Positions 1-38,658 of a stretch of 38,658 bases of DNA are shown one piece after another (the first letter of the stretch is position 1; the number at the start of each line of letters is the position of its first letter). Source of the stretch: a virus; IMG/VR virus record IMGVR_UViG_3300012362_000005, positions 1 to 38,658 of that record, one strand, 5' to 3'. The notes under the pieces were generated by a model. It was given only the letters and a program-made list of their open reading frames with translations, did no database searches and had not been told where the DNA came from. A program made the position numbers and the translations under genes.

Positions 1-3000
1 AACGTCGATCCCGCCCGTTGTAGTCGAAACCGCATAGGTGACTGAGGCCGTATGGATGCCGTAGGGGAAGCCCGATAGAGTCACTGAGGCCACAGCGATG
101 ACGGTGGAGGAAGAATTAATGACCACGCTGGTTCCATCCACGGAGAAATTGATGAGTCCTCCCGCTGGTTGCTTTACGTAGTGCAGGATAACCTGATCGG
201 CTCCCGGACAAGTCTCGACGATCGTAGCGGTCGGGGTGCTGGTATGCATCTGGTCGTCATCAAGTCCCTTAGCGACTGCTTGTTGACCCAGGCTGATCCA
301 GGAACCCGTGGCGCTGTAATTGGAGCATCCTAGAGGGCGATCCGACTGAGGCAAGCCATTTTCGTTAGAGAGCGTCGCCCAGGTTCCCGCGTTGCCGAAG
401 TTCGTGTACAGCCAATCCGTGAACGGAGCGCCGATGGTGTTCTTGGCAAAGTGCGAATCTCCGATCACCATAAAGCTAAGTTTATTTGACGACAATGGAC
501 TGAAAGGAACCTGAATAGAAGCCATTTGGCTGAACCATGTGTTTAAAGTTGAACGCCCGAAATACTGGCTATTGGACGGAATGGCGGCGCTGCCTGTCAC
601 GACCAAATAGGCAACTGTCGCACTCGAAGCATTTAACGCCGTCACCGTCATGCTGGAGAACGTGTTGGCCCCCGTCCAGGTCTGGGTGCCTGCGAGTTGG
701 CCATAGGTCGCCGTTGCGGAGGAGTTCGTTAGATAAGTCCCGGAGAGGTCTTGACCTAAAAGCGTCACGCTGGAGGCGTTGAGTTGAACGTAAGCTGTGG
801 AACCGCCCTTCAAGAAGGCCTTGAACGTAGAGGAGTCAAAGTTAACGACGGAGGTCGGGCTCGACGCCACGCTGGAGAACCCACTGGCCGTCCCCGTGGT
901 AACGGCGAGCGATGAAGCCCCACCTCCTCCCGATGAGGAAGTCCCGCAGGTGATACCGTCCGCCTGTGTCCAGTTTAAATGGTTTCCTCCTGAATCCGGG
1001 CAGACGTGGTTAGAATAAGCCGCGAAGTGCGGCCAGGAGTCCTCAAACCAATGCCCTTGGGTATCTTCGGTAAGTATCCCCATAGTCCAGGGCGGCATCC
1101 CAACGGAATTTCCGGCTGAACCGAAATCGATGGAATCGGGAGCCGTTGAATTGATGTTCATCGTGTTGGTCGAAAAATTGACGAAAGTAAGACTAAAGCC
1201 TTTATCGAAACCGGCGGTCGTGTGAACGGGGAGAGTCAGGCTCGGCGCAGGCCCCGGCTGGCCGCAGGAGAGGAGGCTAGAGCGGTCCACCGCCGCGACG
1301 GTCTGATTGATGCAGGCCAACTCACCGTTCGGGTCGATGGGGTAATAGAGCGGTAGAAGCGACGGCGCTTGGGCGACTCCCCCTGCCGTCGGTGAAGAAA
1401 CCACGAATTGAGGAACACCGCCGGGACTTGTGGCGGGCGTAAGAGAAGTCAAATTATTGCTGGCGCTGGTCATCACCAACTGGCTGGCTGTCAGATTCCC
1501 GATATTGACAACTCCTTGAGTCGAAACCGAGAGATGGGTCGAGGTGTTAGCGACGCCGGGAACGTTGCTGGCGATATAGAGATCATAAATAGCGGCCCCG
1601 TCCGATTTGATGGATACGGTGGAGGTATGAAGGCTTTGGCTCGTCAGCGTGATGCTGGAGGTAAAGGTCTTGATGTTCGCTTGAACCGCCGCCATGGTGA
1701 GGGCGTTGCTTCCGCTCGTGGTGGCGTCGCCACTTATTTCCGCAGCGGTCATGGCGGAGGAATTCCCCCGAACAAGGCCAGTCAAGGTGCTTCCGGTTCC
1801 AGTCCCTCCACGGTTCACCGGAATGATCGCGGCCTGGTTGAAGTAGGTGGCTGTTGCGCTCGATTGTTGTAAGTAAGTCGCCGTAGCTGAAGAGTTCTGG
1901 AGGTACGTCGCAGTCGCCGATGAAGTGGTCAGGTAGGTTCCAGAGAGGTCCTGTCCCAACAACGTAACGGATGACGGGTTCAAGCTCACGAAGCTCGTCG
2001 TCGTTCCCTGGAGAGCAACGTTGATCGTCCTGGAGTCAAAAACGACATTTGTGGTAGGGCTGGTAACAATAACCGAACTGGTCGTAGAACCCGATGAGAT
2101 GGCTAAGGGCGATGAACTTCCTCCCGATACCGTAGTCCAGGTCGGGACCGTTCCCGGGCCGCCGGAAGTTGCGACCTGACCATTATTTCCAGCCGACCCG
2201 TTCAATAGAACGCCACTGGAAATGGCGATATTTCCATTGAATGTGGTGGACGATTTCCAGGTGTTTCCGCCGGTCCAGACTTGGGTGGAATTCAGAAGGT
2301 CATAAGCGATCAGGTTGGAGGAGGCGTCTGTTTTGACGAACCGGGATGCCGTGATCCCGGTGTTAATCGTATCGGTTATTTGGACCGTACCGCTTCCATC
2401 CCCCGCGCCGATCTGTGTTTGCAAAACACCCGAACCTCCTGTTGCGGCAATCGTGGATATTTTATCGCCAGCGCTATTGTAAAGCAGGATTTGACTGCTT
2501 GGCTTAAGAATCAAACTCCCACCCGCCAATACGGTTTCAGTCAATGTGGTCAAAGTAGGGGCGGTAAAGATATTGGCCGTCCCACTGCTCGTATAGAACG
2601 TCGAGTTCGCTTGAAGCGTGTCTTGATTGTGGATGTAGCTGGTAGCGTTCTGTTGTAGATAGGTCGCCGTTGCAGAAGATAATGTGAGATAGGCACCGGA
2701 TAGATCATTCAACTGAACGTAAGCCGTGGAACCGCCTTTTAGAGTGACCGTGAAACTGGAACGGTCAAAATTCACCACCGTAGTGGGGCTCGAAGCGATG
2801 CTGGAGAATCCAGAGTTGGTACCGGTCGTCACTGCAAGATTCGCGGCCCCGCCTCCTTGGGTCGCGGCGTTGATCGTCTGGTTCGGCCAGGTGCCGGTGA
2901 TGGAGGTGATGTTAGTCCCTACAACAAGGCCCGGCGTGACGCCTTGAAGCGTGCTGATATTCAGGTTGGTGACCGTCCCGCTGGAGGCCGTGAAGGTGGA

Positions 3001-4467
3001 GATCGTCACGTAAGCCAAGGTCGAGGTGCTGGTGGCCGTCAAGGTGCTGACCGAGACGCCTAGAGCGTCCACGAAGGTTCCGGTCGAAGGATACTGCCAA
3101 TAGTTCAACGACCCAGAGATCGACGCATAGGTAGCGGTCGCGGATGATTTCTGCAAGTAAGTCGCCGTGGCCGAGGAGAGTTGCAAATATGTGGCGGTCG
3201 CCGAAGAATTTTGAAGGTACGTCGCCGTGGCCGAACTCAATTGAAGGTAAGTGGCGGTGGCTGAGGAATTTTGAAGATACGTAGCGGTCGCTGATGAATT
3301 CTGTAAGTAGGTGGCTGTTGCAGAACTGAGTTGAAGATAGGTTGCTGTGGCGGATGAATTTGTGAGGTATGTACCCGATAAATCCTGACCAAGAAGAGTC
3401 ACAGAGGACGGATTCAGGCCGATGAACGAAGTCGATGCCCCTTGCAACTTGGCGGTGAACGTGTTGGAATCAACTACCACATTCGTAGTTGGGCTGGTCA
3501 CGATCACGGAGCTAGTGGCAGAACCCGAGGAGATGGCAATCACAGCTGACCCGCCCCCTCCGCTCAAGGCTTGGCAGGTAAATTTATTCGTCGTGGCGGA
3601 CCAAGCTAAGGCATGGGCGGAATCTCCGCACGTAGCCAGCCCCGCGCCAGTGAGACTCCCTATATTTACCGCATAGGTAAAACTGGAGACAGCGGGAGTT
3701 GACCAGACGTTCTGGCCGGTCCAGGTTTGACTGGCGGCAAGTTGTCCATAGGTGGCGGTAGCAGAGGAGTTCGTCAGATAAGTAGCGGAAAGATTATTTC
3801 CCTGTAGTGTGACAGACGAAGGATTCAAGCCGATAAAGGCCGTGGAAGCTCCTTGTAAACTGGCTGTAAAGGTGTTGGAATCGACCACGATTTTGCTTGT
3901 CGGGCTGGAAACGATGACTGAACTGGTAGAGGAGCCGCTGGAAACACCGAGAGTTGAGGACCCTCCTCCTGTCGCCGGAACCACCCAAGTTCCATCCCCT
4001 CGCCAGAAGGTCGAATTGGAAGCGTTCGTTCCGCTGTTTAGATTCGTGACCGGCAGATTGCCGGTTACTCCCGTGGAAAGGCTGATCGGTTGAAGCGTGA
4101 CGGTGGCGGTCGAACCCGTGGCTGAACCATTGAAAGGCCCGACAAAATTCTGGGAAGCGGTCGGACTCGTGATTCGGACCCCGTTGACCATTGTTTCCAA
4201 GCTGGATGCGCCGCCACCACCTCCGTTTGATGGAATGGTCGGTGTTGTGGTGAGAATCCTATTGGCATCCAACCACAGAAAATACCCTGTAGTGCCATAA
4301 CCTAGTTTGGTTTGGGTGCTGATCGTCCCGCTGGAAACGCTAAAGGCAGGTTGATTGGCGATCGTACTGACATTGAGGATGTAATTCCCAGCAGGCGGAC
4401 TGCTGGGGCCGGCATAGGCCACCCCAGCGAGTCCCAGGAATACGAGGACTTTGGCAACTACTTTCAA
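1..4467 (-). CDS. Giant modular tail fibre with SGNH-hydrolase-like domain (partial; 3' end beyond the left edge)
   Basis: An uninterrupted frame of 1,489 codons runs from a TTG at 4467 to the window edge. TTG directly follows the TAA stop of the upstream 63-aa gene, and a stop codon precedes it in frame, so no longer start exists. Residues 1-19 look like a Sec signal peptide (basic start, hydrophobic core, AYA then GP). The rest is Ser/Thr/Gly-rich and typical of fibre shafts. A module of about 60-80 residues (SSP-T--V-FDS-TF, then a TAYVQL- or TSFIGL-like strand, then [12 protein letters not shown]) recurs about five times. Several copies end in decapeptide repeats, LQ(N/L)SSATATY. Near residue 1332 the sequence [11 protein letters not shown] matches block I of SGNH/GDSL hydrolases (Ser of GDS as nucleophile), suggesting a receptor-deacetylating tip. 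It probably continues at 38658-38260. Host adhesion is inferred from family character. Confidence 0.85.
3120..3390 (-). repeat. 30-bp tandem repeats encoding [10 protein letters not shown] decapeptides in the tail fibre
   Basis: Roughly nine consecutive 30-bp units, read on the minus strand, encode a decapeptide LQ(N/L/K)SSATATY. Wobble positions differ between units while the protein stays nearly constant, so the array is selected at the protein level rather than being a fresh duplication. It occupies about residues 360-450 of the fibre. Shorter arrays of the same peptide occur near 1835-1930 and 2640-2680. Periodic Thr/Ser/Tyr strands of this kind are common in trimeric phage fibre shafts. 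Confidence 0.85.
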
Positions 4468-4851: not shown

Positions 4852-5013
4852 ATGAATTCTGATCACCAAAAATTATGGCGCTTTAGAATTAAGGCATTGA
4901 TTTTAATCGTCATTGGCGTTCATTTCTTGGGATGGATTGGAGCGATCGGAGGATTCCTGATTGCATCCTATTTCCTCCAACCTCGTTATTCACCGCTTCC
5001 TCCGATTCGCTGA
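4852..5013 (+). CDS. Small membrane protein on the opposite strand to its neighbours (moron-like)
   Basis: The product has 53 residues: a basic N-terminus (MNSDHQKLWRFRIKA) and a long hydrophobic stretch at about residues 14-42 with a central Gly-rich break (GWIGAIGG), so one long or two short membrane segments. It lies on the plus strand inside the leftward late block, between the ejection-protein gene (3' ends overlap by 24 bp) and the small genes before the fibre. A TATAAT sits 6 nt upstream of the ATG, so it may be expressed alone from a leaderless transcript. Opposite orientation, an own promoter and a membrane product are typical of moron genes such as superinfection-exclusion proteins, but a holin-like role is also possible. 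No family is recognised, and coding status is not certain. Confidence 0.5.
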   Translation: MNSDHQKLWRFRIKALILIVIGVHFLGWIGAIGGFLIASYFLQPRYSPLPPIR

Positions 5014-7515
5014 TTCGTCTCCCCCACCTTCCAGAATACCGCCAATCATATTCGCTACCGGCATCGCCGCTCCGCGACCAAACGGAAGCATTCCGTCCGT
5101 GAGCCATTTCTGAATCGTCGGACTATAATAGGCGCGGGCTAAGGCTTCCGTAGGAAGAAATTGCGCCATGGCCTGAACAGGGTCTTTTAACAGCGTTTTC
5201 ATAAGACGTGCAGCCATAAATCCCATCGCCGTGTTGGGCGGATTCTGAACGGCGCTCATATTATATTTAGACCGATAGGCTAAATTAATAAAGTCGCCTA
5301 CCTTCTTTTGTTCAACTGCATTCGGAAACATCAAATCCATCATGTCCTGACCATATTTATTCTTCGCCGAGTCCATCGCGGCGCCGGAAATTTGACCATG
5401 CGTGTTGGGATCAAGCAACTTAGCTAAAAAGGATTGTCTCATCAGTTGTTGGCCTTCTGGGTCCATGGCATCCATGACATCAGAAACATTCTGCGTTCCC
5501 CCCTTGCGAAAGATCGCGTCTATAACGAAGGGACCGCCGGGACTATTCAAAACTTTCTTAAAAATGGGATTATCCGGCAAAGAGGGCGGCAAAGAATCAA
5601 GTTGCTCCGGCAATTTCAAAATGGCCGCCGAAGTCTCGGGATCGAGAATTCGACTGATCGTGGCGGGCGTCCACTTAGCGATTTGCTTCCTCACGAAAGC
5701 GCCCGTCATAGGATTATTAGAACCTGTTTCCGGGTCAATCCCTGAATCAAGAAAATCGTTCATAAAACGGGATTGGATATCCTGAAATCCTTGCGGCGGC
5801 AAAGCACGCTTGGCCATATCAATACCGGTCGTCATTCCAGGTTTGACAAGTCCGCTATAGATCATTTCTGGAGACTGACTTTTTAAAATGCCCTGGAGGG
5901 CCTTTTTATCAGTCTCGCCCATGTAAAACTTATAGAAGGCATTCGCCGCGTCATAGGCTTTCTGAGCCTCTGGCGATGATTGTTCAAATGCTCCCGCGAT
6001 ATCCTCCGACACGGTTCCATGTACCTGTTTAAGCATCCCACTATCAATCGTTCCAAATCCAGGCGTCGGACCCGTTGCGAATCCTTGCGATTGATCGATA
6101 GCCCGAATCGAATTCCCCAAATCGGAGCGCAGCCGCATGAGTTTGGAAAGCGGCATTGTTCGGTTGTCCATGAAGGCTTTTATCTCCTCTGGTGATATGG
6201 GTTGCGGAAGTTGGGAAGCGATCCGTGGATCATTCACATCAATCTTAAAACCGGCAGGCATACTTTGGGTTATTTGGGTCTTAGCCGTTTCGATCTCAGC
6301 GTTTCGTTTAGCAACCATTGCCTCTATTTCGCTCTGGCCTGATAAATCTTTCAAAAGTGAATTGGTCGTTGAGTCTTGAAATTGAGGCATACTCTCCATG
6401 GCTTGCAAGCGCATGTTATGGGCCATTTCTTGACTGCCTTTAATGGAGGCTTTAAAATTCGGATCAAAGGCATTTCTGGCATGTTCATAAAGGGCATCTG
6501 CGGATTTTCCCATCTCTTCAAAATACGATTGCGCCTGATTCTGCATATTCGTACCGAGTTCGTCGTAAGACAAGGGCGACCCATGACGCCGCAGAATGGC
6601 ATTTTTAAATTTTAAGGCCTGGGTGGTGTTCATGTTTGTATTATCGCGAACAAAATCATCTAGGTGTTTCTGAATGGCGTTGCCGTATTGTTCAAGACTC
6701 AGATTCACATCGCCATTTTCAAGGATCGATTTATGGGCCTTAATCATCTGTTGAAGCGCTTGCTCATCAAACTCACGGGCGACCTGGCGTGATCCCGGGA
6801 GCACCCGCAGGGCACTCGCAACGGTTCCAACAATAGGATTATCACTTCCTACGGTTTCAGCCGGGATTTGGACTCCCATATTATGAGCCGATTCGACCAA
6901 TTCGCGATCCGCCGAAGATAAATTCATGCCACCGAACAAAGGACCTAGAACTTCGCCGGCAGCGACGTTAACTCCTCCTTCTAATAAATCCCGAGTCGTT
7001 TCCCCCGCGATGCCCCCAGTCGTTGCTATAGGTTTTCTAATTCCTATCGCCGTATCCATAGCATGTGAGGCGGCCAAACCGCCCGCAACTCCGAGTGTCG
7101 GCGCGACGGGTCCTGATGCCGCAGCACCGGGGACGGCTTCCGCACCTACGGCTCCCAAGGTGAGCAAAGCCGGCGTATATATTTTTGATGCCATGCGGCG
7201 ATAATAGAGCGGATCGGGAGTCGGAATTGATTTCGCAACGGTATCAATAAACGTCGATCGATGGTCGGCATCCATTTGCTGATATTCGGGATCAAGTTCC
7301 GACATGACTTTATCGATCGCCGATCTTTGATAAATAGTGCTACCTGATTGAAATTCATGGTCCTGCCACATTTTTAATAGGACTGAGCTAGCCGATAATG
7401 GCGATGGAGCTGCTTGCGTCGCGGGAGAATCTAACGGAGCTGTTGAGATAGTCGGCGTTCCCGTATCGGAGGGTTGCGTATCATCGGCGGGATCGACAAC
7501 GGCCAAATTAGCCAT
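4990..7515 (-). CDS. Large internal virion / DNA-ejection-type protein
   Basis: The product has 841 residues. A Pro/Thr/Ser-rich N-terminal 45 residues precede a helical region. Residues about 110-150 form a hydrophobic Ala/Gly/Val-rich stretch (TPALLTLGAVGAEAVPGAAA) that could insert in membrane. The remainder is mixed helical and hydrophilic, and the end is basic (SANRRKR). Position and size (last and largest of three consecutive structural proteins after the collar fibre, just before the fibre gene) match the ejection or internal-core proteins of short-tailed phages. The start ATG overlaps the upstream stop as TAATG, so translation is coupled. No enzymatic domain, in particular no lytic transglycosylase motif, was recognised. 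The role is inferred from context. Confidence 0.7.
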   Translation of the reverse strand: MANLAVVDPADDTQPSDTGTPTISTAPLDSPATQAAPSPLSASSVLLKMWQDHEFQSGSTIYQRSAIDKVMSELDPEYQQMDADHRSTFIDTVAKSIPTPDPLYYRRMASKIYTPALLTLGAVGAEAVPGAAASGPVAPTLGVAGGLAASHAMDTAIGIRKPIATTGGIAGETTRDLLEGGVNVAAGEVLGPLFGGMNLSSADRELVESAHNMGVQIPAETVGSDNPIVGTVASALRVLPGSRQVAREFDEQALQQMIKAHKSILENGDVNLSLEQYGNAIQKHLDDFVRDNTNMNTTQALKFKNAILRRHGSPLSYDELGTNMQNQAQSYFEEMGKSADALYEHARNAFDPNFKASIKGSQEMAHNMRLQAMESMPQFQDSTTNSLLKDLSGQSEIEAMVAKRNAEIETAKTQITQSMPAGFKIDVNDPRIASQLPQPISPEEIKAFMDNRTMPLSKLMRLRSDLGNSIRAIDQSQGFATGPTPGFGTIDSGMLKQVHGTVSEDIAGAFEQSSPEAQKAYDAANAFYKFYMGETDKKALQGILKSQSPEMIYSGLVKPGMTTGIDMAKRALPPQGFQDIQSRFMNDFLDSGIDPETGSNNPMTGAFVRKQIAKWTPATISRILDPETSAAILKLPEQLDSLPPSLPDNPIFKKVLNSPGGPFVIDAIFRKGGTQNVSDVMDAMDPEGQQLMRQSFLAKLLDPNTHGQISGAAMDSAKNKYGQDMMDLMFPNAVEQKKVGDFINLAYRSKYNMSAVQNPPNTAMGFMAARLMKTLLKDPVQAMAQFLPTEALARAYYSPTIQKWLTDGMLPFGRGAAMPVANMIGGILEGGGDESANRRKR

Positions 7516-8708
7516 TAAGGAGTGGCCCCCGCTGGATTAAGCGCTTTTAGATAACGATCCGCAAGACTTGATCCTTGAGCATTGTCCTGGCCTTCGTTAT
7601 TGGCCGTATTATCTGGTGGCAATCCCCCCATGACTGGCGTCGTAACCCGTTCCGGCATCCCGCCAAACGATTTTGAGGTATGACCAAAACCTTGTATCAG
7701 AGAATTGAGTTGAGTTCGATGAATCTGATTGATCGATGTGACGGCTTTGGCTATTCCTTGGCGCTGACTATCGGATAATATTTGGCCTCCGGCTTTAGCT
7801 TGGATATAGGCTGTTAACTGTTCCGGGATGCCGCCTGTTTTCAAAAGTTGCGGTGCAGTCTGAGCGTTTAATCCGCCTTGATTTTGCGAAAGAATCGAAT
7901 TCGGATTCATAGCGACGACGGCATTTTCAAGTAAACCCCAGTCGGAGGCACCTGATGTGTCCTTTACTTTGGCGAGTTGATTGACAGCATAGCCCGCTGC
8001 CAGAGCATTATGAAGAGGTTCCGCCCGAGTCACGAATTGTTTTTGAAGATCAAGATCGATCTGGGTCGGAGATGTCCCTCCGGGCATAGTGGTCATCCCA
8101 GGAGTTCCTCCCGGCATAGGGGAAGCCGATCCTGTTTTAGGAGTAAATGTCGTAGGAGGTGTTCCAGGGGGACCGGCCATAGGTTCTTTGGTGGCGGCCG
8201 CGGGCGTCGCATTCAGAATGCTCGTATCGAGAGTCGCCCATTTTGGGCTTTCCGAGCTGATATATTTGGTTGCTCCGTACATCGCATCGGCATCGCTCAA
8301 TCCTTCTTTGCCGTTCGTATCGTGCCATTGTTTATTTTGGTCGATAAAATAGCCGAGGTCTTTCCCGAATCCGGACGGTGCAGGCGTATCGGGTAATTGG
8401 ACATCCGGCGCTAAAACTGACATTTGTTTTTTGATGAATTTATAAATTTCGGGTTGTGTGGCTTTTGGCGCTGAATCGTATAGTGTTGTAGCACGCTCTA
8501 AGCCAGTAAGCGCATTCGTTTTCGCTCTTTGTTCGATCTCGGCTTGTAATTTCTTTTGTTCAAGCTCCCTTTGTTGTTGGAGGGCTCTAGTTTGCTGCAT
8601 CAAATAGGCCATCTTTGCGCCACTATCTAAACCTTCGGACAGCCCTTTGCCGATATTGGCTTCAGTAACTCCCGTTGGAAGCGGTTGCGCGCGAGGGATA
8701 TCAACCAT
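7515..8708 (-). CDS. Putative internal virion protein with N-terminal coiled coil
   Basis: The product has 397 residues. Residues about 35-65 form a Gln/Glu/Lys/Leu-rich coiled-coil segment (LQQQRELEQKKLQAEIEQRA). Residues 165-215 are Gly/Pro/Thr/Met-rich low complexity (PGGTPGMTTMPGGTSPTQ). The C-terminal third is helical and ends in a disordered tail. It sits between the 342-aa and 841-aa proteins and shares a TAATG junction with the latter. No family was identified. A role in genome ejection is inferred from its place in the podovirus-type gene order. Confidence 0.65.
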   Translation of the reverse strand: MVDIPRAQPLPTGVTEANIGKGLSEGLDSGAKMAYLMQQTRALQQQRELEQKKLQAEIEQRAKTNALTGLERATTLYDSAPKATQPEIYKFIKKQMSVLAPDVQLPDTPAPSGFGKDLGYFIDQNKQWHDTNGKEGLSDADAMYGATKYISSESPKWATLDTSILNATPAAATKEPMAGPPGTPPTTFTPKTGSASPMPGGTPGMTTMPGGTSPTQIDLDLQKQFVTRAEPLHNALAAGYAVNQLAKVKDTSGASDWGLLENAVVAMNPNSILSQNQGGLNAQTAPQLLKTGGIPEQLTAYIQAKAGGQILSDSQRQGIAKAVTSINQIHRTQLNSLIQGFGHTSKSFGGMPERVTTPVMGGLPPDNTANNEGQDNAQGSSLADRYLKALNPAGATP

Positions 8709-8711
8709 AAA

Positions 8712-9740
8712 TTATCCGGCCAGCATGGAAGCCCCTTGGGGTCCCCATGTTGACGTTCCTCCCGGCCCAGAGTTAAAACCCGATGAGCTACTCGATGATG
8801 GGAATAATATTCGCGATCCTAGATTCGCCCAGCCCATAAGCTGATTTTGACTCGCGTTGTATTGGTTCAATCCAGCCGTGTAGTTCATCTGCGCCTGATC
8901 CAAGGCTTGCTGATAGGGACCTAGCTGTTGGGTCTGATAGGGTTGGTAAAGACTTCCCAAACTTGATTGGTAGTTGGTCAGTAAAGGCGATAAAGTGGCG
9001 GGTATGCTTGTAGCCGCTGACGAAGTGTAGCCCAGTTGCGTTCCCGTCGCGCCAAACCCGGCTCCGGCGGCGCCCCCGGCCGCCCCTACTGTTCCAGCAA
9101 CCTGGCTTCCAAGCGTGTTGATATAGCCCAGACGTTCAGAACTATTTTCCGCTTGGACATTCTGCTGGAACAACTGAATCGCCCGCTGGCCGGCCGTGGA
9201 ATCCGAAGTCGCCTGCTCCGGCGTGTCTCCAGTGACCATGATACCCCTCTGGGCCAAAGAATCCTTCAAAGTCATGAAATCCCGCTGCTGGCGCTGCTTG
9301 GTGGCCTCATTTATAGCGCCGGTCCCCTGTAAAGCTTGCAAATAGGCCGCAGATTGAGCCTGCGCCACTCCAGGAACCCCTGTGGCGCTCGTTGTTGAAC
9401 CGGGAGGTCCCGCAGACCCTCCGGATGTATTTGTGCCCCCAAAATAGCTTTGCAGGTAGCCCATAGCCGCAGATCCGACACCCTGGGCTTGCGCCAGTTG
9501 TCCCTGAGACCGCGCTTTGAGATCGGTTAAGGCCGCTTGATCGAGGTTTCCCTGCGCGTCATAGAGACCGGATATCTGTTGGAGAATGTTTTTGTTCTGC
9601 GCCAACGTATTCCCTGTGCCCTGGATCATCTGATTGAACTGATCGAGCGTCAGGCCTTCCTTGGAGAGGATATCCTGCTCTTGCGGCGTTAAACCGGGGA
9701 ATTGGGGCAGCTGTGGCGCGCTAGGCGGCGATCCGCACAA
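8712..9740 (-). CDS. Putative internal virion protein, Gly/Gln/Ser-rich
   Basis: The product has 342 residues and starts at TTG (9740), preceded by a strong AGGAGG at 5-nt spacing. The N-terminus is MCGSPPSAPQLPQFPGLTPQ, a Cys-Gly-Pro-rich opening seen in many ejection-type proteins. The middle is Gln- and Ala-rich and helical. Residues about 215-245 are Gly/Ala-rich (AGTVGAAGGAAGAGFGATGT) and hydrophobic enough to touch membrane. The C-terminus has a run of six Ser and a Gly/Ser-rich tail. It is the first of three consecutive probable ejection proteins (342, 397 and 841 aa). Confidence 0.65.
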   Translation of the reverse strand: MCGSPPSAPQLPQFPGLTPQEQDILSKEGLTLDQFNQMIQGTGNTLAQNKNILQQISGLYDAQGNLDQAALTDLKARSQGQLAQAQGVGSAAMGYLQSYFGGTNTSGGSAGPPGSTTSATGVPGVAQAQSAAYLQALQGTGAINEATKQRQQRDFMTLKDSLAQRGIMVTGDTPEQATSDSTAGQRAIQLFQQNVQAENSSERLGYINTLGSQVAGTVGAAGGAAGAGFGATGTQLGYTSSAATSIPATLSPLLTNYQSSLGSLYQPYQTQQLGPYQQALDQAQMNYTAGLNQYNASQNQLMGWANLGSRILFPSSSSSSGFNSGPGGTSTWGPQGASMLAG

Positions 9741-9771
9741 GGTGTCCTCCTGTATGAATATCAGCTACAAC

Positions 9772-10050
9772 TCAGATGGGCTTCACAAATCGCATATATT
9801 TACCGATCACTTCTTGCGGCATGGCCCCGAATTTTACTAATAAACGATGGAAATCCTTATGAATCAGTTCCGAATCCGTAAACCAGCCATGATATCCGGC
9901 TCTCCAAATCGATTGTTCCATGTGAAACAAATCCCTTATCAATGTTTTCTGGAGTCGTCCATGCTGATTTTGGACCCACCGGCAATAAATCCAACCGCTC
10001 GGATAGAGCGTCGCCTCTAGAATCCCATCGTTGAAAATGACCTGGCTCAT
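9772..10050 (-). CDS. Conserved-looking small phage protein after the collar fibre
   Basis: The product has 92 residues, is rich in Trp, His and Arg, and lacks a signal or membrane segment. The C-terminal half (WFTDSELIHKDFHRLLVKFG) resembles small proteins often found beside collar or fibre genes; some of those have been compared with acyltransferase-like folds, which I cannot verify here. The start overlaps the collar-fibre stop as ATGA. A minor structural or chaperone role is possible. Confidence 0.6.
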   Translation of the reverse strand: MSQVIFNDGILEATLYPSGWIYCRWVQNQHGRLQKTLIRDLFHMEQSIWRAGYHGWFTDSELIHKDFHRLLVKFGAMPQEVIGKYMRFVKPI

Positions 10051-10946
10051 GTCTTAATGATAAATAGCACCGTCGCATAAGGCGGATTCGCAGTTCCAGT
10101 CGCCCCTGTTCCCTGACTGTCGGTTCCCGGCGTCGCCGCGCCTGTGGCCCCGGTGTGCGTATGACTTCCTTGCGAATCCGTTTGATCATTCCGAATTCGT
10201 AGTGTTTCGCCACCAGATGCGTTTGGCGTTCTTAAATCATGGCTCCCATCGTCTCTGACGCCCGTATGGAGAAAACCACTGGTCAGATTTACGCTTCCAA
10301 GGGCTCCGCCATCCGTCAACGTGTGAGTATGGGCACCATCAGAGGAAATGCTGTGGGTATGCGAATTGACCGTATGCGAGTGCGAAGGCCCCGTATGGGT
10401 ATGGCTTTGAGTCCCTCCGCTGGATCCAACGTTCGTGAATAGGCTGCCGGCATCCTTTCCATAGAGGGCTTTCCCGCGCAGATCAGGAAGGTTAAAGGTC
10501 GATCCTCCATCGCCAACGCCCCAGGTCGTTCCAATGGCCGTGAACAGCGCCGCATAGGTCGTCCGGCTGACCGCCGATCCATCACAAGTCAGAAAACCTG
10601 ATGGAACCGACGTTCCAGCAAAGGCTCTTACTTCGCCGGTGAGAAAAACAGTCGCCAAACTATTCGCGCTTGGGGCCGTTTGATACCAATAGGTCGTCCC
10701 CAGAATTTGCGCCAACTGATACCGGATTCTCTCCAGTTCTCCGGATACCGAACCGGCATGGCTCGTTACACCGCCCGGAAAAGGATTGGTCTGAATCTGC
10801 ATCTGATTGTCTGTGACGGAATAACCACCCGCGCCGATAGCATCCAGCAAAGTTCCCACATTGCTGAGTTCGGTATTCCAAAGAGCCGATGTGATCAACT
10901 GGCCGGGGATGACGCTCTGTAAGGGGATGGTGCCCGTTGTAGGCAT
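10047..10946 (-). CDS. Short tail fibre with phage tail-collar domain
   Basis: The product has 299 residues. Residues about 104-163 match the tail-collar family (Phage_Col): GEVRAFAGTSVPSGFLTCDG, then YAALFTAIGTTWG, then STFNLPDLRGKALYGKD. It is followed by a His-Thr-Ser-rich region (residues 181-216 and about 255-266, with repeated HTHTG and HSHT), the metal-binding repeat seen in short tail fibres such as T4 gp12. The N-terminal 100 residues probably attach it to the tail hub. It would bind the host envelope at the base of the tail. The start overlaps the upstream stop (TGATG), and the stop overlaps the next start (ATGA). Confidence 0.88.
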   Translation of the reverse strand: MPTTGTIPLQSVIPGQLITSALWNTELSNVGTLLDAIGAGGYSVTDNQMQIQTNPFPGGVTSHAGSVSGELERIRYQLAQILGTTYWYQTAPSANSLATVFLTGEVRAFAGTSVPSGFLTCDGSAVSRTTYAALFTAIGTTWGVGDGGSTFNLPDLRGKALYGKDAGSLFTNVGSSGGTQSHTHTGPSHSHTVNSHTHSISSDGAHTHTLTDGGALGSVNLTSGFLHTGVRDDGSHDLRTPNASGGETLRIRNDQTDSQGSHTHTGATGAATPGTDSQGTGATGTANPPYATVLFIIKT

Positions 10947-11389
10947 CAGTGGACTCCTTGCTTGGCATAGAGATCAACCAATTCTTCAGCCGTGATTTTA
11001 CGCATCATACGCGCATCGGCGTATTGCCGCTCAACCGCTTCGCAAATCTCAGGCCCATGACCGGCCCATTTCGCTTCGATTTGCAGAGCCCTGACAATTT
11101 GGCGGATAATCAGCGGGCCGGTCGTTTCGTTCAGATCGAATTTCCGGCATTCTTTACAGGTCAAAATATGGATAACGGATTCTTTCCCGCGTCGATACAT
11201 GATGACCGGCGTTTGTGAATACTGGGCGTTTGGCATTTTGGCTACGACCTTGACCGTCCGTTTTGAATCGCCGATCATCGGCATTTCTTTATAGCCTAAC
11301 TGGCTGATCGGCGTCGCGCAGGCCATGCACAGCACCGTCTCATCGGCGAAGCAATCGCCGGGGATAATATAGTCATGCTCGAAAATCAT
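10946..11389 (-). CDS. Hypothetical protein with CxxC pairs (putative zinc-binding)
   Basis: The product has 147 residues. Two Cys pairs, CMAC near residue 22 and CKEC near residue 78, could coordinate one zinc ion. The C-terminal 45 residues are helical and charged (MMRKITAEELVDLYAKQG). It lies between the 520-aa tail protein and the collar fibre, coupled on both sides (ATGA and TGATG), so it is co-produced with tail proteins. Function unknown; it may be a structural adaptor or assembly factor. Confidence 0.65.
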   Translation of the reverse strand: MIFEHDYIIPGDCFADETVLCMACATPISQLGYKEMPMIGDSKRTVKVVAKMPNAQYSQTPVIMYRRGKESVIHILTCKECRKFDLNETTGPLIIRQIVRALQIEAKWAGHGPEICEAVERQYADARMMRKITAEELVDLYAKQGVH

Positions 11390-13765: not shown

Positions 13766-14661
13766 CAGTAATCCACGATGGTTTGCGCCATTTCATGAAG
13801 GTCGGTTCCATAAGTCGCCGAAGCAACCTTCGCCGTGAGGTCGCTCATCCATAAATTCCAGGCTTCGGGACCTCGAATATCATCGTTTTCCATCAAACGT
13901 TTCGCCCGGATGCCGTCGATCCAGAAATTCCGCCATTCGAGGTAAAGACGCTGCATGAGGGCGGAATTTAAATCCGTTTTCATGATATTTCCGTAATAAA
14001 AGAACTTAAGCCCATAGTTAAAGACCAAATCGGGCGCTACATCGAGGATAAATTCATCAAAATCCTCATCGCCGATGGGATAATACTCCCTGGGCCGACC
14101 CACAGCCGATGGGCGCGTTTTGAGATAGAAATCGGCGATATGTTTGGGCTCTAATGGATAAGCGAAATCGATCAGCATGTATCCGGAGGTCCCATCCGGA
14201 GCCGCGGCAAAAGCGGGCGTGACAGTGAGCGTGATGGTCCCCGAATTATTCGCCAATCCGACAATTTGACCTGCGGAACCCGCCCCCGTTCCAGAAATAA
14301 TGAGGATTTCCTTGCCTAAAACGTCCGTCAAGGCAAAAGTTGACCCGGCTGCCATGACTAACGTCGTTGCAGCGCCACTTTGAGCGGTTCCAGTCACCGT
14401 CCCAGTCAACACCTGCATCCGCATATCCGATGAGAAGTCCGCCGGGCATGAATACCGGCTTTGGCCGGGAACCAAAATGCCATAAGCGAAGGTCTGCATG
14501 ACCTTGGGTTGCCGACAATTCTCCCAAATCTTGTTTTTGAGCTGTTCCATGACCTCGTTTTGGTAAATGGCAAGCAGTGATGAAGAAGGGGAGTAATCTC
14601 CGGCTTGCCGGAGGCCTTCCGTCACCAAGGAAAGTAATGTGGGGTTAGCAGGCGACGCCAT
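13765..14661 (-). CDS. Head-to-tail adaptor / neck protein (putative)
   Basis: The start at 14661 (MASPANPTLL, 298 aa) is preferred over an earlier ATG at 14715 because it has an AGAGG site and lies just before the end of the upstream glycosyltransferase gene (17-nt overlap). A helical N-terminal region (LLAIYQNEVMEQLKNKIWENC, split by short loops) precedes a beta insertion at about residues 85-155 rich in Ala/Thr/Gly. A helical C-terminal region follows (DLVFNYGLKFFYYGN, then LYLEWRNFWIDGI). Helical adaptors with a beta insertion are typical of connector proteins that bind under the portal in podovirus-type phages. The identification rests on gene order and architecture. Confidence 0.6.
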   Translation of the reverse strand: MASPANPTLLSLVTEGLRQAGDYSPSSSLLAIYQNEVMEQLKNKIWENCRQPKVMQTFAYGILVPGQSRYSCPADFSSDMRMQVLTGTVTGTAQSGAATTLVMAAGSTFALTDVLGKEILIISGTGAGSAGQIVGLANNSGTITLTVTPAFAAAPDGTSGYMLIDFAYPLEPKHIADFYLKTRPSAVGRPREYYPIGDEDFDEFILDVAPDLVFNYGLKFFYYGNIMKTDLNSALMQRLYLEWRNFWIDGIRAKRLMENDDIRGPEAWNLWMSDLTAKVASATYGTDLHEMAQTIVDY

Positions 14662-17010: not shown

Positions 17011-17916
17011 TTACGCCTGGAAGAATCCTGTCATCAAACCGGAACCTTTTTCGTTCCGGCTTTCGATGGTGAGTTCCGCTTCGATCTTGTACCGATCGGA
17101 CGAACCGGTTTTCGCCAGTTCGACGCGATTGACCGGCCTGAGCCACGCCTTGACCCACAACTCGAGCACGCCCAAGTTCAGGACATACCCCGGCTGAACG
17201 TCGTTGATGATGTGGTGCAGACGGATCATGATCGTTCCGAAGTCCGATTCATAAACATCGACGGTGTTTACGAGCTTCTTTTCTTCCGCTTCAATGCGCC
17301 GAACATTGGAGGTAAACCCGCTGATCTGCCTTTTCTGATAGGAGCCGACGAGCGTGACCGTCGGATAACCGCCCTGAGCCCAGACTAACGCCAGATTCGC
17401 GTTAAACGTCGGCTCGTCCAGCTTTTGGCTGGTGGCGGTCGCCGTGGTCAAGTTTGTGGCGATCCATCCCAAAAGACCTTTCATCTGCCTGGCTACGGAG
17501 GCCGACCCGGCCGCCGTGGTCGAGTTGATGAGGATGGCGTATTCGATGTCGCGGGCTAGTTCCTTTGTGCGCTTCAAGGTCTGATAGTCCACTTCATCGT
17601 TACGGCCCGCCGCTACGACCGCCCGCTGGGTTTCAGACACTCCGAATACCTTCCAGAGAATCTGACAATAGTTCCCCAATCGGACAGTCGGCGTGGCCGC
17701 CGTCGCCGTCGCGTCATCGCCTTCGATCTGGGCATTGGCCGCTGCTGTCGCCAGCACGTCGGTCTGCCATTCATGCAAGGTCTGGATAGCCCGGGTTGAT
17801 CCGGTATTGGACGTGATCCACGTATCCATGGGACTGATGTTTGTGATCACGTCAATCAGATCTTCCCGGTTACCTATCGCTTGATAGGTTTGAAATACTC
17901 CACCGGGTACTGTCAT
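17011..17916 (-). CDS. Major capsid protein, SU10 / DUF5309 type
   Basis: The start at 17916 (MTVPGGVFQTYQ, 301 aa) is chosen for the GAGGATG site upstream and because the family begins here. The segment FQTYQAIGNREDLIDVITNI, then SPMDTW and LHEWQTD, is the signature N-terminal part of the SU10 major head protein family, an HK97-fold capsid. It self-assembles into the procapsid shell around the scaffold. Upstream is the scaffold-like gene (15-nt gap), and a hairpin follows. Pro/Ala-poor composition, length and neighbourhood all agree. Confidence 0.9.
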   Translation of the reverse strand: MTVPGGVFQTYQAIGNREDLIDVITNISPMDTWITSNTGSTRAIQTLHEWQTDVLATAAANAQIEGDDATATAATPTVRLGNYCQILWKVFGVSETQRAVVAAGRNDEVDYQTLKRTKELARDIEYAILINSTTAAGSASVARQMKGLLGWIATNLTTATATSQKLDEPTFNANLALVWAQGGYPTVTLVGSYQKRQISGFTSNVRRIEAEEKKLVNTVDVYESDFGTIMIRLHHIINDVQPGYVLNLGVLELWVKAWLRPVNRVELAKTGSSDRYKIEAELTIESRNEKGSGLMTGFFQA

Positions 17917-17930
17917 AATTTCATCCTCAG

Positions 17931-19043
17931 TTAAGCTTGACCGCCCTCGCGTTTCAGACGAAATACTTCCATCCAATCCTCGGTGCGGCCAGTCTTTTTG
18001 GCGGTTTCAAAAGCCGCCTGATAACGTCCCTGCCAATTCGCGTCTGGCGATTCACGGCTTGGAGCGCCGCTTGAAGGTTCAATCACAGGAATAGCTACAG
18101 CATTGCCGTTGCGATCGATCACGGGAACCGTTCCGGCCGGAACGGATATCGGTTCCAGCCTGGGAACGATGGATGGCGTCACAGGAGCCGGAGGAGCTGG
18201 GGCCGCTTTCCCATTTCCGGCCATGAGGTCCTTGAGCTTCATCTCCTGATATTTCCCGAACCAGAATGCCTGGGTATCCAACGCTCTAATGGCCATTGGA
18301 TTGGCGGCGACTTCCGGTTTGGCCAATTCCGCATCCACGAAGGCCTGAATTTTAGGAGCGTACGTCAAGAAATCATCCGCTCCCAAATCGGCTTTCACTT
18401 TAGCGTCCAATCGCTTCAATCCTTCTTGAAACTGCTGTGGTGCTACCAAGGTCCGCAGTTCGGCTAACTGGGTTTCCAAGGCGGCTATCCTTGGATCCTC
18501 GGCCGGCTTGACAGCCGGCGCAGGTGCAGGCGGTTCTCCTGGTTTAGGAACAGCAAGGGAAGGTTGAGGTGGAGTCGGTTGGCGCAATGCGGCGCGTTCC
18601 GCCTCCAGATTGGCTCGTTCGGCAGCTAATTTCTGTCCCTGAATCGTCAAGTGGCGCTCCAACTGAATGTTTTTCAGAACGTCTTTGGCGGGAACATCCA
18701 TTTCAACGCCATCCACTTTCATTCGCACCATCGTTCCATCGGGCAGCTTGCTGAGGTCAAGGTAGACCGGCGTGGTAGGTGCAGGGGCGGGTGGTATCGC
18801 GGGCGCGGGCTTCATGGCAGGCGTGGCCGCTGCCGGCGGGAGCGCTTTATCTTTGTCCTCAAAGGGTTTCACGGGTTGGTTGTAGATCACTCCATCCTCT
18901 CCAACAAATTCCGGAAACAACTTTGCGGTTGTCGATTGCACTCTCGGCGCAGGCGGTTCGCCCGGCTTGGGAGCCGGTGCGCTGCCCGGTCTGTCAAGAT
19001 TCAGCGCCGCCTCGGTGGCGGTAGCTTGGTCTGTTACTTCCAT
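17931..19043 (-). CDS. Putative capsid scaffolding protein
   Basis: The start at 19043 (MEVTDQATATEA, 370 aa) follows a strong AAAGGAGG; a longer frame to 19151 lacks a ribosome site and overlaps the previous gene. The N-terminal half is Pro/Ala/Lys-rich and disordered (APAPKPGEPPAPRV and similar). Residues about 140-160 (KDVLKNIQLERHLTIQGQKL) and 215-235 are coiled-coil-like. The C-terminus is charged and helical (EDWMEVFRLKREGGQA), as in scaffolds that bind the capsid shell by their C-terminus. It lies directly before the capsid gene, where scaffolds normally are. Function is inferred from these features. Confidence 0.75.
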   Translation of the reverse strand: MEVTDQATATEAALNLDRPGSAPAPKPGEPPAPRVQSTTAKLFPEFVGEDGVIYNQPVKPFEDKDKALPPAAATPAMKPAPAIPPAPAPTTPVYLDLSKLPDGTMVRMKVDGVEMDVPAKDVLKNIQLERHLTIQGQKLAAERANLEAERAALRQPTPPQPSLAVPKPGEPPAPAPAVKPAEDPRIAALETQLAELRTLVAPQQFQEGLKRLDAKVKADLGADDFLTYAPKIQAFVDAELAKPEVAANPMAIRALDTQAFWFGKYQEMKLKDLMAGNGKAAPAPPAPVTPSIVPRLEPISVPAGTVPVIDRNGNAVAIPVIEPSSGAPSRESPDANWQGRYQAAFETAKKTGRTEDWMEVFRLKREGGQA

Positions 19044-19482: not shown

Positions 19483-21444
19483 CTATGCCGGCGCCAAAAT
19501 GTTTTGCTGCGCGGGACTCATCGGCGCCGATACTCCTGGCGGCGACGGCTGCCCCTTCGCGCCCTCTCCTTGCTGCGGAGGCGGAGGTTGCATCGCCGGG
19601 AGCTTCATTTCATCCACATTCTTGAATCCAAGCAACTTCGCGATCTGCTCAAAAGGGATCATGGGATTGAAAAATTTAACATTCGGAGCCTGGATCGCGC
19701 CAATCTGGAGCAGTTGCCCCATTTGAGCGTTGGCTTGGTTTCCGAGTTCCGAGAGAGTTTTATATTGCGCCATTTGCTGAGCCTTATTCTGTCCCAAGGC
19801 CGGCATGAAATCGAAATCGCCTTGGATGACAAGTGACGGCGGCGCTCCGATATACTTTCCTTTCTCATCCTTCACAAATTTCCAGCCGAGGACCCGGCCC
19901 GTGACCATCTCGATAAACGCATCCGATTCATACTCCTGCTCATAGCGAAGCAAGTATTGAAACAACGGCACCAGCCCCGTCAAAGCGATATTCCGTATGA
20001 CCATATTCGTTTTCTTAGACGAATTCGATTGCAGAATATTGGAGGTCGTCGCCGCCTGCTCATCATTCGCCTGAGAATTCACGCCCAACTGCTCGGCGCT
20101 GATCGATGAGATTTCAGCGTAGAGCGCGTCCGTCCGCTGCTGTGCCGGCAAACTGATCGCCACGGGATTAGACATTTCCAGTTCCCGTATGGCTTCCGGC
20201 GTGACATCGGCGCCCTGAATGATTCCACCCATTTTCCTGATTTTTGCCGCCATCAAATCGATTCCGGCGTTTTTATTGATCAACAGCGGCGGACGCAGGG
20301 CTCGAGCAACGGCTTCCCGTTCCTGATTGATCCGGGCATTGGTTTCCTTTTGCAATCCCTTCGTCACTTGCGGGAACGACTTCCCATACATCTGATGCGC
20401 TTCGGGGAACGAGGTCGCCACAATGAACGGCGGCCGGACCGTTTCTGTCGGGTCAAACTGGAGCGGCAGATTATTGTCCACCCAACCGCGCATCTCCGCC
20501 ATAGGACGCTCGGCGTTCCCGCCCAGAACGAAACTCCCCGATATCAGATGGCCATCCGAGGCCTTGGGTTGCAAATCCCAGAATTCATAGACCCAGATCG
20601 CTTGCAGTTCCATCACATCCTCGGGCGCGCCGGCAAAGGGCGACCCTTGATTCAAATTCCTCTGGTTCTTGATAAGATCCGTCCCGGGCATCGTCCCCGC
20701 CCAGGGGATCAAGTCCACATTCTTATAGCCTCGTTTTTCGCAGTAATCGCGCGTGCGCTTCACGCGGTGGCAGATCGGAAAATTCCAGTAATTCTTCCAA
20801 GTGCTCTCGAAGTGGAAAAATAAATCCTCATAGGGGACGCATTCCACTACCGGCGTGAAAAACTGGATGACTTTCTCCATATCCGCCGGATCGGGCGGTT
20901 CCACGGAATTTCCATTTTCATCGACCAGGTAAGAAGTCCGCACCCCTTTCAATTTGGTTCGGATGATCTTAAATCGGGGATAGATTTTCAGGATGCCGAT
21001 CTTATTTTTGATGGCATCCTGCACGAATTCATAGATTTCCTGGTACGCCATAATGGGGTGCCCATTCAACCGATAGTTGATGAGCGCCTTGATGATATCG
21101 AGCGTTTCGCGCGGAACCGACTTCCAGGACCGGATCGTGCAGAGTTCCTCGAAATCGAAAAACCATGTTTCTAGGCATTCTTCGATAATACGCTGCACCT
21201 GGGCATAAGTCTTTGGAATGAACAGGCGCGGGACGCCGAGCATTTCGGAGAACGCGATTTCCTTCTTATCGAACTTGGCGTCGTAGAGGTCATTATCCTC
21301 AGCCCATCCGAATTCAACGAGGTTTCGGACGTTGCGGCTCATCCGCAAAATATCGTAGCCCCGCCGGATGAGAGCCCATTCCTCGGTTCCGGGCTTGCCG
21401 ATGTATTCGACTTGACTGTCGGCGGGGAAGGGAATCGCGTCCAT
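19483..21444 (-). CDS. Portal protein (podovirus type)
   Basis: The product has 653 residues, the usual length for large podovirus-type portals (P22/SU10-like). It sits immediately after TerL (1-nt overlap) and before the scaffold and capsid genes. Long helical regions are seen: residues about 430-475 (ISSISAEQLGVNSQANDEQA, then TTSNILQSNSSKKTNMV) and IALTGLVPLFQYLLRYEQEY, typical of the portal stem/wing. The Pro/Gln-rich C-terminal tail (MQPPPPQQGEGAKGQPSPPG) is disordered. It forms the dodecameric ring at the capsid vertex through which DNA is packaged. No single diagnostic motif; the assignment comes from length, order and helical pattern. Confidence 0.85.
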   Translation of the reverse strand: MDAIPFPADSQVEYIGKPGTEEWALIRRGYDILRMSRNVRNLVEFGWAEDNDLYDAKFDKKEIAFSEMLGVPRLFIPKTYAQVQRIIEECLETWFFDFEELCTIRSWKSVPRETLDIIKALINYRLNGHPIMAYQEIYEFVQDAIKNKIGILKIYPRFKIIRTKLKGVRTSYLVDENGNSVEPPDPADMEKVIQFFTPVVECVPYEDLFFHFESTWKNYWNFPICHRVKRTRDYCEKRGYKNVDLIPWAGTMPGTDLIKNQRNLNQGSPFAGAPEDVMELQAIWVYEFWDLQPKASDGHLISGSFVLGGNAERPMAEMRGWVDNNLPLQFDPTETVRPPFIVATSFPEAHQMYGKSFPQVTKGLQKETNARINQEREAVARALRPPLLINKNAGIDLMAAKIRKMGGIIQGADVTPEAIRELEMSNPVAISLPAQQRTDALYAEISSISAEQLGVNSQANDEQAATTSNILQSNSSKKTNMVIRNIALTGLVPLFQYLLRYEQEYESDAFIEMVTGRVLGWKFVKDEKGKYIGAPPSLVIQGDFDFMPALGQNKAQQMAQYKTLSELGNQANAQMGQLLQIGAIQAPNVKFFNPMIPFEQIAKLLGFKNVDEMKLPAMQPPPPQQGEGAKGQPSPPGVSAPMSPAQQNILAPA

Positions 21445-23626: not shown

Positions 23627-24976
23627 CTAAGGCTTCCCGGCGACGAACGTTTTAAGCTGCACGCCTCCCGTGGTTGGTCCCTGGACGTTCAGGCGCAGCC
23701 AGTTATAGCTGACCGGCCCCAGGTCCCAGATACTCACGGTTCCGGTCGATGAAAACACGCTCATGGTAATGCTGGCGATCGCGACGTTATACACGGTCGT
23801 CGTCAGCGGCGCCCAGTTCGTCTGATCGTTTGAGGCTTCCCAGCGAAACGTGGGAGTGCCGGTGATCGCTAGAGGAGCCAGCGTGTAAGTATGGGCCGCG
23901 GTCTGGGTTCCGGAGGAGGTCGGCACCACGTCCGCCTGCCCGAGCTGCGCCTTAGCGGAGGTCGTCGCCAGCATGAATGTCCCGGCCGTCACCGGCACCA
24001 CATAATACGTCGTCTGGTTCGTCAGGCCTGAAATCGCGAGCGTCCCCGCCGTATACAGGACGGGGAGCGCCTTGGTGAATTTATGAGCCGCGATCGTGAT
24101 CGTCCCGACATTAATCGCGAACGAGGAATCCATCGCTCCGAACATCGATCCCGTGGCATTCCCCAGGGCGGTGCTCGAGGAGGTAAACGGACCGATCGTG
24201 AGCGCGCTTTGGGTGGTGGTGGTAATCGTATAACTCGTATTCAAGCCCACGCTGTTTGTCGTGGAAGTGACCACCGACCCCACCGCCTGGGAAGTGACGG
24301 TCAAACTCGCGACGGAGGCGTTAAACGCCGCCGCCAGGTTCGTCGCCGTCTGAGCCGTGGAAGTAATCGGGATGAAATCCTTCCCCGCCAGCACGCAGGT
24401 TCCATTGATGCACGCCGTCGCGGCGTCCTGCCCTCCCGAAAACGCCGCCGAGGATATCGCCGTCAAGGAACTCGACTGGATCGAAAATTTATTCCAATAA
24501 CTCCCGTACGCCGGCGCCGTCGAAAACACAACCCCCGTCGCCGATCCGAACGCGCAAGTCGATAAATATACCGTCTGACTGGCAATATCAGAGGCGATGT
24601 TGCAGGCCGTGTTCGAACTGGTGAGCAAATCCACCCGAATCGGAATGTTGCTCCCAGCTATAAACAACGTCTGGTTCGCCAGCGCCGTGTTCGAGGTGAT
24701 CAATACCTTCGCCGTGGCCGTCGCCGTGCTGAGCGCCAAAAACGACGCCACCGTGAAGGTCCCCGTGCTCTGTTCCCCATCCGTGAACGTCTGTGCCGCC
24801 ACCGTCGCGGAAGCCCAGTTCACCTGCATCGAGACGGACTTCACCTGCGATAAATCCAGATAATACGTGTTCGAGTACGCCAGCGCCGTCTCGTTGGTCA
24901 ATACGGCCTGCGACGGAATCTCCGCGGCGGCAGCCCAACTCCCCAATAACGCCAACGCGATCAATAATCGTCTCAT
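23627..24976 (-). CDS. Secreted-looking Ser/Thr/Ala-rich protein with beta-strand repeats
   Basis: The start at 24976 ([20 protein letters not shown]) is preferred: it follows the upstream stop by one base with an AGGGG site, and it gives a classic Sec signal peptide (two Arg, hydrophobic core, Ala-rich cleavage region before EIPSQ). The product has 449 residues. The mature part is Ser/Thr/Ala/Val-rich and beta-strand-like. A middle segment ([20 protein letters not shown], then [13 protein letters not shown]) resembles repeat units of phage structural/adhesin-like proteins. The C-terminus ([15 protein letters not shown], then [10 protein letters not shown]) resembles a carbohydrate- or surface-binding beta domain. 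A signal peptide is unusual for a virion protein. It could be an exported adhesin, a decoration protein or a surface-exclusion factor. Confidence 0.75.
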
Positions 24977-24977
24977 C

Positions 24978-25151
24978 CTATTGCCCCTGCACGTAATCCC
25001 CATGCGCCGCCACCTGGTAATACTCCGTGTCCGACCACTTCAACTGCGCCTTCGCCGTCGATCCGTTAATCACCGTCGCCGGCAAAACCACCTTGCCAGA
25101 CTGTTTACGAACCACAGTCACATCCCTTAGCCCCCGCATCATCCAGTACAT
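24978..25151 (-). CDS. Small beta-rich protein before the secreted-looking gene
   Basis: Starting at the ATG at 25151, which has GGGAGGG just upstream, the product has 57 residues (MYWMMRGLRDVTVVRKQSGK onward). It contains a short beta-strand pattern (KVVLPATVINGSTAKAQLKW). The TAG stop is one base before the next gene's ATG, so the two are coupled. No family is recognised. Confidence 0.55.
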   Translation of the reverse strand: MYWMMRGLRDVTVVRKQSGKVVLPATVINGSTAKAQLKWSDTEYYQVAAHGDYVQGQ

Positions 25152-34314: not shown

Positions 34315-34408
34315 AGGGCCCTGGTGGTTGATTCCCGCACCCTAGAAAGCCTAGAAAAGCGGGAGACGACGGTAAAAAGCGTTGATGGTTTACAGTAAAG
34401 GAGGAAAA

Positions 34409-37158: not shown

Positions 37159-37255
37159 CGCCACCAACGATCTGGGGATGTTCCTCGTGTTCTTGATCGT
37201 GGTGATCGTTATGGCAGCATTGCTGGCTGCGCTGGTAAAGGAGATCGGCAAATGA
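37151..37255 (+). CDS. 34-residue single-pass membrane peptide
   Basis: ATG at 37151 with AGGGAA just upstream, overlapping the previous stop by 8 nt. One membrane segment of about 22 residues (MFLVFLIVVIVMAALLAALV) is flanked by a polar N-terminus and KEIGK. The stop overlaps the start of the lipoprotein-like gene (ATGA). Size and topology are compatible with a holin-type or regulatory membrane peptide. Confidence 0.6.
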   Translation: MSDATNDLGMFLVFLIVVIVMAALLAALVKEIGK

Positions 37256-38259: not shown

Positions 38260-38658
38260 TTAAGTGATCGTGATGCTTCCAGAGACGCCCGAGAGAACGA
38301 CACTTGTTCCCGCCGGGTTTGAGCCGATGATTCCTGTCATGGAAATAGAGTAAAGCCGTTTAGCGACCGTCGCATCCGTGCTTAAACGCACGGTCAGCAA
38401 GAGCCCTTGTCCCAAGACGGTCTGGTTGATGCCGAAAACCAATACCCGCAACGCCCCCGCCACGATGGAAGTAGAAACCGACTTCTGCGCGGCTATTGCC
38501 ACGGGCCCAGGCGTTGCGGAGACGAAAGAAAAACCGGAAGGCAGCGGCAAGTCAAATTGAAGGCTGGCGATCTGGCCGGGACCGGGAAGAAAAGCAATCG
38601 GAAGATCGAAGGCGGATAACGCCGGGGCGCTTAGGACCCCTCCCGCGACGACCGATCC
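38260..38658 (-). CDS. Cohesin-like C-terminal domain, partial (start beyond the right edge); probably the end of the tail fibre
   Basis: The frame is open from the last base to the stop at 38260 (132 residues); an internal TTG at 38550 could be mistaken for a start but has no ribosome site. The pattern (IASLQFDLPLPSGFSFVSAT, then RVLVFGINQTVLGQG, LLLTVRLSTDA, ending VSGSITIT) resembles cohesin-type beta-sandwich domains, which bind partner proteins or extend surface proteins. Joining the window ends, the left-edge fibre continues into this frame at an exact codon boundary, giving one protein of about 1,621 residues with this domain at its C-terminus. That join is inference. Confidence 0.7.
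   Translation of the reverse strand, partial: GSVVAGGVLSAPALSAFDLPIAFLPGPGQIASLQFDLPLPSGFSFVSATPGPVAIAAQKSVSTSIVAGALRVLVFGINQTVLGQGLLLTVRLSTDATVAKRLYSISMTGIIGSNPAGTSVVLSGVSGSITIT

Follow-up and report, generated by a model that had tools for sequence, protein, structure and literature searches.

The fibre gene and its genomic setting

We analysed the whole of IMG/VR record IMGVR_UViG_3300012362_000005 (38,658 bp, classed as linear; here, the window), one end of which carries a giant fibre gene that is the last in a minus-strand late operon, next to the tail genes. The main genes of the window are:

1..4467, minus strand: giant fibre gene, 1489 codons, 5' end complete (TTG), 3' end cut by the contig end
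4990..7515, minus strand: large ejection-protein-like gene upstream of the fibre, labelled by position only in a P22-like order
10047..10946, minus strand: tail-collar protein without a signal peptide, possible virion-bound adaptor (Pfam Collar, E 4.3e-23)
11386-12948, minus-strand late operon: weak virion-protein match
17011..17976, minus strand: major head protein (phrog_1328, E 1.5e-82)
19483..21444, minus strand: portal protein (phrog_1216, E 1e-24)
23627..25003, minus strand: second signal-peptide gene, beta-rich, upstream of a terminase-like gene
38260..38658, minus strand: C-terminal fragment encoded by an open gene at the opposite end of the contig, with an Acidobacteriota-type domain

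This gene order is like that around the tailspike (gp9 class) of P22-like podoviruses, with the fibre following gp10-like and ejection-like genes as the final structural gene, although the ejection-protein labels across 4990-9740 rest on position only. A tip or receptor-binding role would be expected for the window fibre as for that tailspike, from which it differs in having a signal peptide, at least 1489 residues, and module and decapeptide repeats; no sequence similarity of the fibre to a known tailspike was found. Relatives of the major head protein occur in Bradyrhizobium retamae and in one Omnitrophota-group genome, and none was found in 149 Acidobacteriota-group genomes. A glycosyltransferase gene (phrog_7162, E 2e-38) and a methyltransferase-like gene lie between the capsid and tail genes (14645-16554, minus strand). 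On the plus strand, a 21-base tandem repeat (GAGCGCGGCGTGGAGCGCGGA, about 11 copies) at 34852-35115 falls inside or overlaps the frame 34382-35167, and a short lipoprotein-like frame at 37252-37506 (MNRITFWFVIIALLTTGC) is possibly a spanin.

The TTG start of the fibre gene stands directly 3' of an in-frame TAA, the stop of the preceding small frame, so that no upstream start is possible, just as the original prediction had stated. Further support for this start comes from a second phage contig, IMGVR_UViG_3300006638_000010 (G001, with loci L088, L090 and L091), in which the ATG of a homologous gene, L088, aligns to the same residue. Because the fibre gene runs off the contig, its C-terminus is not in the record. 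The fragment at 38260-38658, on the same strand, would continue the fibre's reading frame were the two ends of the contig contiguous, and it contains a domain similar to one found in Acidobacteriota genomes (E 1.8e-13). We do not claim that joining the ends completes the fibre, as the ends do not overlap and the fragment has no relative in IMG/VR.

Within the fibre gene, the following features were located, all on the minus strand and listed from the N-terminus:

4411..4467, minus strand: Sec/SPase I signal peptide, residues 1-19, cleavage expected before Gly20
3985..4008, minus strand: FWRGDGTW stalk motif, common to many phage fibres
3742..3951, minus strand: repeated module 1, residues 173-242
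3574..3630, minus strand: cysteine pair 280/298
3334..3543, minus strand: repeated module 2, residues 309-378
3127..3363, minus strand: decapeptide array, 8 copies
2656..2832, minus strand: repeated module 3, residues 546-604
1900..2106, minus strand: repeated module 4, residues 788-856
1843..1929, minus strand: decapeptide array, 3 copies
1264..1314, minus strand: cysteine pair 1052/1068
946..1002, minus strand: cysteine pair 1156/1174
700..909, minus strand: repeated module 5, residues 1187-1256
451..462, minus strand: GDSH motif, residues 1336-1339, SGNH block I-like
208..327, minus strand: cysteine pair 1381/1420, within the non-repetitive distal part

The five modules and the decapeptide arrays described in the original prediction are real and far beyond chance, with SATATY alone occurring 14 times (in the 8-copy and 3-copy arrays and as single copies) against 0.005 occurrences expected from composition shuffles. 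No Pfam or PHROG domain was detected in the fibre protein itself, and a search of genomes with the fibre module (with A1) gave no match.

The GDSH-type motif that had been proposed to mark a possible deacetylase is likewise present, in the context FMVIGDSH at residues 1332-1339, in which a GDS motif follows a hydrophobic strand as in block I of SGNH/GDSL proteins. Searches of Pfam, NCBIfam, PHROGs and the PDB produced no SGNH family match to the fibre, in which only part of such a domain could be present, and dedicated searches with the PF13472 and PF00657 profiles at E values up to 10 also gave none. From residue 1300 onward only 190 residues lie within the contig, and SGNH blocks II-V, including any Asp/His, would fall beyond its end. 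AlphaFold2 run from the single fibre sequence reached a pLDDT of 32. With the gene truncated at its 3' end, an SGNH enzyme was dropped as the main finding, and a deacetylase is no more than a possible reading of the motif. The C-terminal region matched synaptotagmin C2 with an E value of 0.002 over the whole chain, each stretch being weak, which was judged to be chance, and no relatives of the tip domain were found in IMG/VR and phage records.

Signal peptide and cysteines of the window fibre

The N-terminus of the fibre has the tripartite n-h-c form seen at the true N-terminus of Sec/SPase I secreted proteins, in which charged residues at the start are followed by a hydrophobic core free of charges and then by an AxA-type site (AYA/G). 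It contains neither a lipobox nor a twin-arginine motif. Signal peptides were called throughout by a rule of our own, with conservation as added support. When fibre N-termini in general were shuffled, 2.5% of the shuffles satisfied the rule, as did 8.9% of shuffles of the window fibre's own hydrophobic N-terminus; at the latter rate a match is not decisive alone and is no proof of a signal peptide, and conservation is therefore the better evidence. Homology between the L088 fibre (1404 aa, N-terminus MRLFKTALLIAGLSSVALG/GPVGPPGGAPILN) and that of the window begins at residue 1, with 39% identity over residues 1-67 (E 7e-6), and L088 was the only match to the fibre N-terminus in an IMG/VR search (with A2). 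The signal peptide originally placed at residues 1-19 is thus borne out by its form and by the conservation of both start and peptide in L088.

The head and packaging genes of the window and G001 have no detectable similarity at E 1e-4. What the two phages have in common is the fibre N-terminus, a small protein rich in beta structure (E 3e-7) and another exported protein, the product of window gene 23627-25003. Its G001 counterpart (E 5.5e-37) is encoded immediately upstream of the signal-peptide fibre gene; as that copy lacks its 5' end, the signal peptide is visible in the window copy only. Four signal-peptide genes stand in a row in G001.

Folding in an oxidising compartment would predict a higher cysteine content in exported fibres, and this was found. 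Counted beyond residue 40, the median cysteine content was 15.1 per 1000 residues in signal-peptide fibres versus 3.1 in signal-less ones (p 1.2e-6), whereas the ordinary genes of the same two contig groups did not differ (3.6 versus 3.8 per 1000, p 0.30). Other signal-peptide genes of the same contigs were equally cysteine-rich (15.9), and cysteine counts were even in 21 of the 24 signal-peptide proteins of at least 300 residues. The eight cysteines of the window fibre form four close pairs (P 0.00095), as in disulfide-bonded proteins. A second sample held just three signal-peptide fibres, one of them lacking cysteine, and gave an enrichment p of 0.10. Since that fibre has no cysteine and the L085/L086 signal-peptide proteins have no cysteine pairs, disulfides are not universal in the class. 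Overall, the enrichment and pairing of cysteines supports, independently of the signal peptide, the view that these fibres fold outside the cytoplasm.

Signal peptides on other phage fibres

The FWRGDGTW stalk module is common to hundreds of fibres. By our rule, a signal peptide is present in 11 of 73 phage fibre frames with this module, nearly all from IMG/VR, compared with the 2.5% rate in shuffles; most fibres with the module have none. L002 and L003, the nearest relatives of the window fibre by stalk module and decapeptides, are both among the 11, and by inspection L084 and L085/L086 also start with a signal peptide. The property extends to neighbouring genes. Among those of 150 aa or more that lie no further than 4 kb from the fibre, counted over all contigs, signal peptides were found in 14 of 60 beside signal-peptide fibres versus 5 of 252 beside signal-less ones (odds ratio 15, p 1.3e-7). 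The corresponding figures in a second sample, obtained with a different query, were 5 of 15 versus 6 of 173 (p 6e-4). Several exported fibre-like proteins per phage occur in L012, L088 and L032, and L012 has five signal-peptide genes in the same region. The recurrence of signal peptides and likely disulfides on fibre genes of many unrelated phages suggests that in some phages part of the fibre is made outside the cell interior. The original prediction had called a secretion signal on a phage fibre unusual, which is right for textbook phages, but such fibres are a recurring class in environmental phages and in some prophages. In the literature searched, we found no description of a signal peptide as a class feature of tailed-phage fibres.

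Related stalks are found in other contexts. Single-chain FWRGDGTW fibres (L204, L050 and that of Bradyrhizobium phage ppBjS10J-1) have the same stalk motif, with identities reaching about 80% in the stretch around it, but differ in having no signal peptide, few cysteines and an N-terminal attachment domain of their own. Cellular 'tail fibre' surface proteins of Bacteroidetes and Patescibacteria have similar stalk modules and nearly all have signal peptides; these differ in being encoded in cell genomes, and their export has reasons unrelated to phages, which weighs against reading the combination as a phage trait. Two very large FWRGDGTW proteins from alphaproteobacterial genomes (L119 3459-11165 and L133 302-5437) have a pseudopilin-like N-terminus (GFMLAPLLYMLALAGVGAGVMF). 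The L003 signal-peptide fibre (9638-12778) has five decapeptides and, at its end, a Pfam SPOR domain (E 7.8e-7); such domains bind peptidoglycan, normally in the periplasm.

Several signal-peptide proteins have features of virion tail proteins. That of L032 has a Collar domain (E 4e-11), and that of L109, a prophage of Nitrobacter sp. Nb-311A, has an S74 chaperone match (25.6 bits, cut-off 22) and a sub-threshold Collar match, its gene lying directly after a tail-tip-like gene. In L129, a Rhizobiales prophage, a 154-aa protein without a signal peptide is followed 8 bases later by a signal-peptide fibre with a weak beta-helix match. In the phage contig L204, both parts are in one chain without a signal peptide, as evidenced by matches to the first 40 residues of the 154-aa protein (E 4e-7) and to the fibre stalk (57-77% identity). 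When two proteins occur as one chain in some genomes and apart in others, they usually function jointly, and the exported half of the L129-type fibre is therefore likely to form the distal portion of a virion fibre. Of ten candidate adaptors put through this split-fibre test, the one in L129 alone had a clear fused counterpart, in L204.

Probable export, possible docking and alternative roles

Sec export and extracytoplasmic folding of these fibres appear well supported by the sequence statistics, and the window fibre itself is very probably exported. Export before assembly, one of the two roles in the original prediction, gains from the conserved N-terminus, the clustering of signal-peptide genes and the enrichment and pairing of cysteines, which all point the same way. 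Our best model, to which we give slightly less than an even chance, is that the window fibre is a Sec-exported, disulfide-bonded distal fibre that docks on virions at or after lysis. The late-operon fibre would be made in the infected cell as a substrate of Sec and signal peptidase I, cross the inner membrane, be cut after residue 19 and fold outside the cytoplasm, with disulfides forming within its four close cysteine pairs. The product would be a distal fibre part, with stalk modules and decapeptide arrays followed by a tip domain. On lysis, the exported fibre would most likely dock on a virion-bound tail protein, or adaptor, made in the cytoplasm; no obvious adaptor adjoins the fibre gene in the window. 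P22 tailspikes reportedly attach last, in vitro, and exported fibres could by the same kind of late attachment join virions when the cell opens. Given export, docking of the window fibre on virions, at or after lysis, seems somewhat favoured; cleavage and trimerisation are predicted steps as well.

A serious possibility, though one we doubt on balance, is that the exported protein never enters the virion. It would then coat the infected (or lysogenic) cell or lodge in its envelope, serving as adhesin or receptor decoy, and so block other phages, a role already raised in the original prediction, or stop new virions from sticking to debris. The signal-peptide and cysteine evidence also fits this role. 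It would account for several exported fibre-like proteins in one phage and for the same stalk modules in true cell-surface proteins, a terminal SPOR domain such as that of L003 would suit an envelope-resident protein, and the window and G001 share exported proteins although their head and packaging genes are dissimilar. Against a decoy, however, are the location of signal-peptide genes at fibre positions in late operons, the Collar, S74 and (weak) beta-helix tail domains in signal-peptide proteins, the split and fused fibres of L129 and L204, and the lack of any outer-membrane anchor or secretion signal in the sequenced part of the window fibre.

The remaining alternatives dispense with either export or phage biology. 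The N-terminus is where phage fibres are usually joined to the tail, and the hydrophobic N-terminus of the window fibre could be an uncleaved anchor that fixes the fibre there, with no signal peptide in vivo; this is improbable, since unrelated proteins repeatedly show the tripartite form and AxA-type sites, accompanied by cysteine enrichment downstream. Very improbable is an origin outside phage biology, as a captured host surface protein or a misassembled contig end. Cellular FWRGDGTW-module proteins nearly all having signal peptides and the Acidobacteriota-type domain at the opposite contig end would fit such an origin, but the fibre gene belongs to an unbroken minus-strand operon that also holds the portal, capsid and tail genes, and the same arrangement is found in many independent phage contigs and prophages.

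Returning to a Sec-exported distal fibre, filamentous phages provide virion coat proteins (pIII and pVIII) that are Sec-exported before assembly; inoviruses, however, assemble in the membrane and tailed phages in the cytoplasm, where the textbook examples also build their fibres. The nearest precedent found in a tailed phage is the T4 antiholin RI, which has a cleavable signal peptide and acts in the periplasm (PMC8385771), but it is a small lysis regulator rather than a fibre. Potentially, the window fibre represents a widespread tailed-phage strategy in which the receptor-binding distal half of the fibre is split off, Sec-exported, oxidised in the periplasm and joined at or after lysis, a proposal that we advance tentatively and still regard as doubtful. 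If it is correct, cytoplasmic virions would leave the assembly line without complete fibres. The prophages of Nitrobacter Nb-311A and Rhizobiales AFS036838 make the question of fibre export testable. If many environmental phages do export fibres, phage annotation would need a class of secreted fibres, such fibres would often misfold when expressed in the E. coli cytoplasm, and fibre maturation, disulfide chemistry, host range and superinfection control in these phages would need to be rethought.
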